Positions 1 through 2,557 of a stretch of 46,043 nt of DNA are shown one piece after another (the first letter of the stretch is position 1; each line of letters begins with the position of its first letter). Location of the stretch: contig VFZD01000004.1 of NCBI GenBank assembly GCA_016871295.1, positions 1-46,043 on the forward strand. Reading direction: 5' to 3'. The DNA is from Actinomycetota bacterium (GTDB lineage: Bacteria; Actinomycetota; Acidimicrobiia; Acidimicrobiales; Ilumatobacteraceae). The position numbers and the translations under genes are program-made. Below the pieces are notes generated by a model. The model was not told the DNA's origin and made no database searches. It was given only the letters and a program-made list of their open reading frames with translations.

Positions 1-211
1 TGTTCGAAGATCTTGACCCGCGGTGATACATCACCAATGCGTTCGCATGCGCCTGACTGAACCCGTGGTTTTCGCGCAAAAAAGCGATTTGCTCTTGATA
101 TTTGTCGGTGTTCAGATCTTTTAGTCGCTTCAGCCATGCTGCGGCTTTTTCGCCGTGCTTCTTCTCGATCGCCGCAAAGTGCTTGCTCCGGTCAGAACTT
201 GTATCAGCCAT
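1..211 (-). CDS. DUF4287 domain protein (partial, 3' end off window)
   Basis: The minus strand reads from an ATG at 211 without a stop to the window edge, giving 70 residues beginning MADTSSDRSKHFAAIEKKHG. The segment with HFAAIEKKHG, a WL.RLK core and the closing motif HGFSQAHANALVMYHRG matches what I know of DUF4287, a short helical domain of unknown function common in Actinobacteria. It is often followed by a DUF5655 domain, so the missing C-terminal part may carry one. The start is the first in-frame ATG, 57 bases from the divergent methyltransferase start. No biochemical function can be assigned. Confidence that it is a real gene is high because the match covers the whole visible protein. 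Confidence 0.72.
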   Translation of the reverse strand, partial: MADTSSDRSKHFAAIEKKHGEKAAAWLKRLKDLNTDKYQEQIAFLRENHGFSQAHANALVMYHRGSRSSN

Positions 212-268
212 CAGAAAAGACTAATTGTCGTGCTATCTGTTTTTGGTTTGGAATATAGTGAGACAGCA

Positions 269-1051
269 ATGAATCTTTGGCGTCAAATAAGACCATTGGC
301 GCTGCGTATCTACTATCTGTTCGCCGACGGACCTAGAGCCTTTGAGGCGGCCGAAAATTCGGTGGCTGATCTAAGCAGTGAGTTTTCAGCGCTCTTTTTT
401 CAGCACTCGGGGCGCGTGTGCGATAAGTGGCATCACTATTTGCCGGTTTATGACAGGCTTTTTGGCCCTTTTCGTTCGGCAAGCAAAGAAGGAGCGCCAA
501 TTCGGTTCTTGGAGATTGGGGTTTGGCGCGGGGGGTCGTTAGAGATTTGGCGAAAGTTTTTTGGTGGCTCGGCCGTTATTCATGGCATTGATCGCGATGA
601 GAGTTGTGCAGCGCTGAACACAAGTGATCTGCCTGTACACATTGGTTCTCAAACCGACCAAGATTTTCTCGCAAATGTCGTGAATCAAATGGAAGGTCTC
701 GACATTGTGCTTGATGACGGCAGCCATCGTGCCCGCGATCAGAGGAAAACTTTCGATGTCCTGTTTCCTTTGCTTTCTGACGGCGGATTGTATGTGATCG
801 AAGATACGCACACTTCATATTGGTGGTCTTATGGAGGTGGTTTTCGAAAACCAGGAACTGCAATTGAAATGGCAAAGTCGCTAGTCGATGGCATGCACAG
901 CTGGTATCACCGATTTCCCGTCAAGAGAAAAATGTGGGCAAAAACCGATGTAAATGCTGTTCACTTTTTTGATTCGATCATTGCAATCGAGAAGAAACGA
1001 CGCATACCACCGGTTCGAAGCAATCGCGGTGTTGATCCATTTGGCGCCTAA
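269..1051 (+). CDS. Class I SAM-dependent methyltransferase (MycE-like)
   Basis: About 260 residues from the ATG at 269; an earlier in-frame start at 155 would run through the divergent DUF4287 gene and is less likely. The middle shows a Rossmann methyltransferase core: FLEIGVWRGGSLEIW is motif I (SAM binding), VIHGIDRD gives the acidic residue at the end of strand 2, and LDIVLDDGSH followed by FPLLSDGGLYVIEDTHTSY resembles the metal-binding region of macrolide sugar O-methyltransferases such as MycE. Proteins of this type also occur in cell-surface glycan clusters. The substrate is not predictable. The DNA is clearly AT-richer than the genes to the right and uses codons such as aat, ttt and tat more freely, which suggests acquisition by transfer or the end of a variable glycan region. 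Confidence 0.75.
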   Translation: MNLWRQIRPLALRIYYLFADGPRAFEAAENSVADLSSEFSALFFQHSGRVCDKWHHYLPVYDRLFGPFRSASKEGAPIRFLEIGVWRGGSLEIWRKFFGGSAVIHGIDRDESCAALNTSDLPVHIGSQTDQDFLANVVNQMEGLDIVLDDGSHRARDQRKTFDVLFPLLSDGGLYVIEDTHTSYWWSYGGGFRKPGTAIEMAKSLVDGMHSWYHRFPVKRKMWAKTDVNAVHFFDSIIAIEKKRRIPPVRSNRGVDPFGA

Positions 1052-1053
1052 GA

Positions 1054-1824
1054 TTACGACGCGAGAGAGCCTGAGAAAACCTGCCAGGCGAGAAGCGATT
1101 TAGCGACGAGGCTGAGAATGATGTAGGCCCGCTCGCCGTGCAGGTAGTTCGCCCACTTGCCTTGTGCCTTGTACTGCTTGTATTGCACGATCGCGAAACA
1201 ATTGAACATTATGAACAGTGAGACGACGATTCCGTAGACGAAACCCGGGGTTGTCGATTCGGCCGGTCCTTTCGGCGAAAGAATGTTGACCACGGTTGCG
1301 AGCCACGGCACGATGCCGGCGATGCATCCGAACCAAAACGGCAGCAGGTCGCCGTCACCGGGTGTCGTATATTTTTCTTGCAGCCAGCCAAACAAGATCA
1401 TGCTGACATTGACGCCGGCGACACCCATGAGCGCGATGTAATCGGCGGTGCCGTTGAGTTGCAGAATGACGATGATCATGATCGTCGACGACATCGAATA
1501 TTCGACCCATCTGAAGACATTGATATGGTTCTTCAACCCGGTCGTGTATTTGCCGAACATCGACGGCGAAACGATGAAGAAGTGGAAAAAGGCCGAGAGC
1601 GCCAAAAACGCCGCGACCATGTAGCCAATTTTCAAATTGAACAGGTTGATCGGATCAGAAAAGTTGCCCGTGCCCGGGGCCTCGGTCAAATAGATCGCAT
1701 TCACCGGGAGTTTTGCGTCGTTGGCGAGAAACAAGATCGCGAGAAGCGAAACAAGGTGCAGCACGCCCGCGATCAGATTCAGGCGCTTGACTTTGCCGAC
1801 TTCAGGGTCGAAAGTGAGGTTCAT
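1054..1824 (-). CDS. Heliorhodopsin (HeR-48C12-like)
   Basis: A 256-residue seven-helix retinal protein. I recognise near-identity of pattern with heliorhodopsin HeR-48C12: a first helix with IAGVLHL, FRWVEYSMSSTIMI in helix 3, a long conserved block from MILFGWLQEKYT to PFWFGCIAGIVPW, and YIILSLVAKSLLAWQ in helix 7. From the ATG at 1824 the retinal Schiff-base lysine is K242, the counterion is E108, and the two conserved helix histidines are H23 and H81. A TTG 12 bases upstream is in frame, but GGAG lies six bases before the ATG and decides the start. Heliorhodopsins sit inverted (N-terminus inside), do not pump ions in the members studied, and have slow photocycles, so a sensory or regulatory role is inferred. 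The gene is divergent from a DUF2889 gene, with about 70 bases between. Confidence 0.96.
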   Translation of the reverse strand: MNLTFDPEVGKVKRLNLIAGVLHLVSLLAILFLANDAKLPVNAIYLTEAPGTGNFSDPINLFNLKIGYMVAAFLALSAFFHFFIVSPSMFGKYTTGLKNHINVFRWVEYSMSSTIMIIVILQLNGTADYIALMGVAGVNVSMILFGWLQEKYTTPGDGDLLPFWFGCIAGIVPWLATVVNILSPKGPAESTTPGFVYGIVVSLFIMFNCFAIVQYKQYKAQGKWANYLHGERAYIILSLVAKSLLAWQVFSGSLAS

Positions 1825-1836
1825 CGTGTTCTCCAA

Positions 1837-1894
1837 ACCAATAGAAATTCAGTGAAAACTTCACACTATTACATTTGCAGTTAGCGTAAGTGCA
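1837..1894. promoter_or_regulatory. Divergent promoter region of heliorhodopsin and DUF2889 gene with a short dyad
   Basis: The stretch between the two divergent genes is AT-rich and must hold both promoters. It contains a small inverted repeat, GTGAA-aac-TTCAC, at 1852-1864, which could be an operator. No convincing -35/-10 pair can be fixed by eye. The dyad is short enough to be chance. Confidence 0.3.
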
Positions 1895-2557
1895 ATGTTC
1901 TCCGACAAATTGTTTCTAGTTGACGCTGATTATCCGTTGATTCATACGCGTCAATATCAAGTGCAGGCTTTCCGCATGTCAGCCGAGCGGTTCTTGTTGC
2001 GCGGGGCGGTCGTCGATGAAAAACCGGCGGGTCTGTATATCGAGAACGATCCAGATCCGATTTGGATGCACCACATGATCATCGAACTCGAGATCGTTTA
2101 TCCGTCGTTCTTGATCGAGAAGGCGAGCGTCGAGTTCAAAAATCACCCGCATCTGGGCTGCACCGAGATCACCGATGACTACAAGAAACTCGAGGGCATG
2201 TCGATCGCCCGGGGTTTCAACGCCAAAGTTCGCGAACTGTTCGGCAGTTCGCGCGGTTGCACGCATATCGGGGCGTTGCTTGCGGCGATGGCCCCCGCGG
2301 CGATTCAAACGGGCTGGTCGATGCGGGTCGGTACCGCGGCGGCGGGCGAAGACTCGGCGAAATCGTCACAAGATCTGCAGGAGCAGCGGGTCAAGCAATT
2401 CGCGTCGACGATCAACACCTGCCACATGTGGGATGAAAACGGCGAGCTCGTCGCCAAGGTTCGCGCCGGTGAAGAAGTCGAAATGCCGATGCCCATCGTG
2501 CGCCGCTTGCGCGATCTCGGCCGCGACGAAACCGACTGGCTCGTCAGCCGCGACTAG
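1895..2557 (+). CDS. DUF2889 domain protein
   Basis: A 220-residue soluble protein from the ATG at 1895. The pattern from RGAVVDEKPAGLYIE through MHHMIIELEIVYPSFLIEKA, the HLGCTEI box, ARGFNAKVRELFGSSRGCTHI and the terminal LRDLGRDE segment fits the DUF2889 family. Two conserved cysteines, in HLGCTEI and GCTHIGALLAAMAP, are visible, but no activity is established. It has no signal peptide and no membrane segment. It is transcribed away from the heliorhodopsin gene, so the two share a control region. Whether that reflects co-regulation is unknown. Confidence 0.75.
   Translation: MFSDKLFLVDADYPLIHTRQYQVQAFRMSAERFLLRGAVVDEKPAGLYIENDPDPIWMHHMIIELEIVYPSFLIEKASVEFKNHPHLGCTEITDDYKKLEGMSIARGFNAKVRELFGSSRGCTHIGALLAAMAPAAIQTGWSMRVGTAAAGEDSAKSSQDLQEQRVKQFASTINTCHMWDENGELVAKVRAGEEVEMPMPIVRRLRDLGRDETDWLVSRD

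Follow-up and report, generated by a model that had tools for sequence, protein, structure and literature searches.

Heliorhodopsins are light-absorbing membrane proteins that bind retinal, have a slow photocycle and, as a rule, do not pump ions. The heliorhodopsin gene at the start of this locus raises the question of whether its flanking genes tell what it does, and of where its retinal comes from. The window analysed here (46,043 nucleotides) is the entire contig C4 of a 1.52-Mb draft genome (G000), which is 91% complete. The features relevant to this question are as follows.

155..1051, plus strand: Methyltransf_24 gene, 48% GC, convergent, ending 2 bp from the HeR stop; a sporadic neighbour.
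1054..1824, minus strand: heliorhodopsin (HeR) gene, 256 amino acids, with retinal lysine K242 and counterion E108.
1825..1894, no strand assigned: spacer between the divergent HeR and DUF2889 genes, 70 bp, AT-rich, 37% GC.
1867..1886, minus strand: conserved block CGCTAACNNNNAATGTAATA, shared by all six HeR-clade members.
1895..2557, plus strand: DUF2889 gene, divergent, starting 70 bp upstream of HeR; judged a positional neighbour and not a partner.

The HeR frame is intact, running from an ATG that ends at 1824 to a stop at 1054. Its product matches the Pfam family Heliorhodopsin (PF18761) with 299.9 bits (cut-off 26.7), the NCBIfam equivalog NF038020 'heliorhodopsin HeR' with 301.6 bits (cut-off 100), and the solved structure of HeR-48C12 (PDB 6su3) with E = 3.6e-95. 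These matches bear out the preliminary description, which had placed a heliorhodopsin at these positions. In the alignment to 48C12, which covers 48C12 residues 8-253, 142 of 246 aligned residues are identical (57.7%). The active-site residues H23, H81, E108, and K242 correspond to H23, H80, E107, and K241 of 48C12, and the four residues named beforehand were thus all correct. N102, R105, W106, Y109, N139, E150, and S238 are also shared (N101, R104, W105, Y108, N138, E149, and S237 in 48C12). The SxxxK retinal motif of helix 7 (S238-K242) is present, together with the counterion Glu and both histidines of the 48C12 proton network (E108, H23, and H81). Neither the lysine nor the counterion has been lost, a point on which the preliminary description had asked for an alignment. 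When the window protein is compared with 95 related heliorhodopsins, H23 and E108 do not vary in any sequence, every sequence long enough to include the position has K242, all except one have H81, and the seven further residues are invariant or nearly so. Based on homology to 6su3, the protein is expected to have the inverted topology, with a cytoplasmic N-terminus.

The nearest heliorhodopsins (95 to 82% identity) come from MAGs of freshwater Actinomycetota, Acidimicrobiaceae and 'acIV'; some titles among the closest matches, such as 'Bifidobacterium breve', look like mislabelled MAGs. In an IQ-TREE phylogeny of 90 sequences, the window HeR groups within the clade of its congeners (support 100/99), while 48C12 falls in another clade (100/100). 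The earlier wordings 'very similar to HeR-48C12' and 'agrees almost throughout' are therefore overstatements, given 57.7% identity and the different, well-supported subclade. Because the closest heliorhodopsins belong to Actinomycetota MAGs and the tree agrees, the host is identified, from these nearest Actinomycetota/Acidimicrobiia loci, as a streamlined freshwater Acidimicrobiia ('acIV') actinobacterium, a monoderm. This agrees with the published finding that heliorhodopsins are confined to monoderms (PMC8612252). A diderm host, which would contradict that report, had been suspected via the freshwater Acidobacteriota UBA12189 and was ruled out, the relatives being Actinomycetota. The window gene is an ordinary, well-preserved member of the known heliorhodopsin family from an uncultured acIV lineage.

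The neighbours had been named correctly as an AT-rich methyltransferase gene (Methyltransf_24, convergent) and a divergent DUF2889 gene, and they had been offered as a clue to function. To follow the flanks across related genomes, as had been proposed, genes were called and clustered in about 100 related loci; the flanks of the window gene are not conserved. A relative of the methyltransferase lies beside HeR in only two of these loci (L028 and L032). Both immediate neighbours are on the opposite strand, so that the window HeR has no same-strand adjacent partner gene. The neighbours therefore fail as a clue, since the methyltransferase is sporadic and DUF2889 became adjacent through GH1 loss and rearrangement. 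The DUF2889-HeR junction is found in six related genomes; it is real, but is a product of rearrangement. The neighbours of the window HeR arrived by recent rearrangement and say little on its function.

Within the spacer, a GGAG ribosome-binding site precedes the HeR ATG. The block CGCTAACNNNNAATGTAATA occurs with zero mismatches in 6/6 clade members and nowhere else in the window, where 0.06 chance matches are expected at up to 3 mismatches. Its two halves behave differently. CGCTAAC is found before DUF2889 even in genomes that have HeR far away or not at all (including L123); its presence in species without HeR assigns this half to the DUF2889 leader. The other half, AATGTAATA, lies 42 nt ahead of the HeR start codon and occurs only in front of HeR; it is a candidate HeR promoter element, perhaps a -10 region. 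A scan for consensus promoters and terminators returned no HeR promoter above chance.

The conserved block is one of the points in favour of HeR and the divergent DUF2889 gene forming a functional, co-regulated pair with a common bidirectional promoter. In addition, DUF2889 co-occurs with HeR in the genus (9/12 genomes with HeR versus 2/17 without; Fisher p = 0.0013, ignoring relatedness), and its homologues carry a possible metal site made up of the invariant residues C89, C122, H124, C176, and H177. Gene order in the relatives, however, makes such a pair improbable. GH1 stands between DUF2889 and HeR in L034/G026, other genes intervene in G021, and on contig L057/G004 a complete 5S-23S-16S operon separates DUF2889 from GH1-HeR. 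Moreover, G008 and G028 have DUF2889 adjoining the 5S rRNA gene and no HeR was found in either, and in other family members DUF2889 and HeR are on different contigs. Likewise very unlikely is the related proposal of a divergent pair under light regulation, in which the rearrangement in this clade joined HeR to DUF2889, with its invariant Cys/His set, and the two then stayed together. The structure model of DUF2889 (pLDDT 79.7) gave no significant fold match, the top Foldseek result being ISCU with E = 0.12, and a PDB sequence search with DUF2889 returned no match. An IscU/NifU-like identity is supported neither by this ISCU value nor by a profile comparison with the SufU-like protein of the window (probability 0.3%). 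The rRNA operon itself has moved within this one genus: it lies beside DUF2889 in G004, G008, and G028 (L057/L122, L161, and L162), and elsewhere, in a common context, in the window's genome, G005, and G022.

In sister lineages HeR belongs to a different arrangement, GH1 glycosidase-HeR and/or HeR-glutaredoxin, all on one strand. GH1 lies 20-56 bp upstream of HeR where frames are intact (L118, L032-L036, and L039), and glutaredoxin directly follows HeR, 34-56 bp downstream, in 11 related loci; the latter association is already published (PMC8612252). These two genes could be the ancestral partners, with HeR gating either redox defence or the use of sugars, as the window copy would still do in trans, a reading that we hold to be tentative and on balance unlikely. 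It is favoured by the close GH1 homologue in the genus, which occurs only in genomes with HeR and adjoins HeR in 4/4, by the recurrent and published glutaredoxin link, and by a glutaredoxin retained in the window's genome on a separate contig (C60:3053-3271). Against it, no close GH1 homologue was found in the window's genome, GH1 having been lost in this clade, and congeners have glutaredoxin regardless of HeR (Fisher p = 1.0).

A further possibility is that HeR is decaying or non-functional in a streamlining genome. HeR is present in 12/29 genus members and was not found in 17/29, most of which are incomplete MAGs; given these 17, the gene is retained yet dispensable in the genus. The HeR frames of G004 (L021/L027) and G027 (L023/L025) are disrupted by a stop or frameshift, through sequencing errors or decay. 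The missing genes and these broken copies, the latter possibly artefacts, would suit a relic, but the window frame is intact, every active-site residue is kept, and dN/dS ranges from 0.03 to 0.07 across comparisons. The nearest relative gives dN 0.030 and dS 0.72 (dN/dS about 0.04), and six other relatives give dN 0.05-0.11 with dS > 1.2, close to saturation. The window HeR is under strong purifying selection, and we consider decay extremely improbable. We favour with good confidence the reading that the window HeR is intact, functional and vertically inherited in a streamlined freshwater Acidimicrobiia actinobacterium; it would give a light signal without pumping, act on a partner encoded in trans, and most likely use scavenged carotenoid or retinal.

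The source of this retinal had been noted as absent from the neighbourhood, and a search of the genome for a carotenoid/retinal pathway had been suggested. Profile searches found neither phytoene synthase (PF00494) nor Blh/Brp (PF15461) in the window's genome or in 28 congeners, and both profiles were positive in G033 of the same family. A retinal-synthesis gene is thus neither nearby nor detectable genus-wide. For the earlier statement that retinal must be scavenged or made elsewhere, half an answer comes from a carotenoid-cleavage oxygenase (PF03055) in 13/22 congeners searched, including the nearest, G005 (L170; others L171-L174). The best NCBIfam model for this oxygenase is 8'-apo-carotenoid 13,14-cleaving dioxygenase, with scores below the model cut-off. 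The oxygenase was not found in the window's 91%-complete draft, where a segment search without positive control was also empty. With the usual pathway genes missing across the genus but oxygenases present in congeners, carotenoids obtained by scavenging are a plausible source; most likely, the cell scavenges carotenoid or retinal and, where cleavage is needed, a carotenoid oxygenase performs it. The window's genome also encodes a second, type-1 rhodopsin (G000:C67:799-1548; L159), with xanthorhodopsin 3ddl as best match (E = 1.2e-51) and an Asp-Thr-Glu (DTE) pump motif, read by eye from the sequence. Given two rhodopsins, oxygenases in congeners and a missing carotenoid pathway, retinal scavenging in these bacteria becomes a testable question.

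By analogy with other heliorhodopsins, light would isomerise the retinal bound at Lys242, and, as in 48C12, the Schiff-base proton would shift inside the Glu108/His23/His81 network with no net pumping. The slow photocycle would then yield a light signal acting on other proteins. Because one viral heliorhodopsin transports protons (PMC9448325), we infer rather than observe that the window HeR does not transport. In the window's clade HeR would form its own transcription unit, with a probable promoter in the 70-bp spacer, and retinal would be common to HeR and the xanthorhodopsin-type pump of the same cell. Any partner would be encoded elsewhere, given that no known HeR partner gene is adjacent here.

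Few heliorhodopsins have known partners, which are glutamine synthetase (PMC9529153), photolyase (PMC9769723), and an ABC transporter (PMC11109279); none of the three is adjacent to the window HeR. The window HeR shares with the described operon-partner groups (PMC11109279; PMC8612252) that it is an actinobacterial heliorhodopsin, but the operon groups (PMC11109279) have a same-strand adjacent partner, which it lacks. The heliorhodopsins of acIV/Ilumatobacteraceae MAGs (VGAB01000090.1 and others) and of IMCC26256 are 69-95% identical to it and fall in the same clade, whereas their flanking genes are unlike those of the window, some having GH1 upstream and/or glutaredoxin downstream. HeR neighbours turn over quickly, and single-genome neighbourhoods should therefore not be taken as function. 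Compared with HeR-48C12 (PDB 6su3, 6uh3), the window protein has one extra residue, which raises its residue numbers by one beyond about position 53, and the likeness between the two extends over the full-length alignment and includes all active-site residues.
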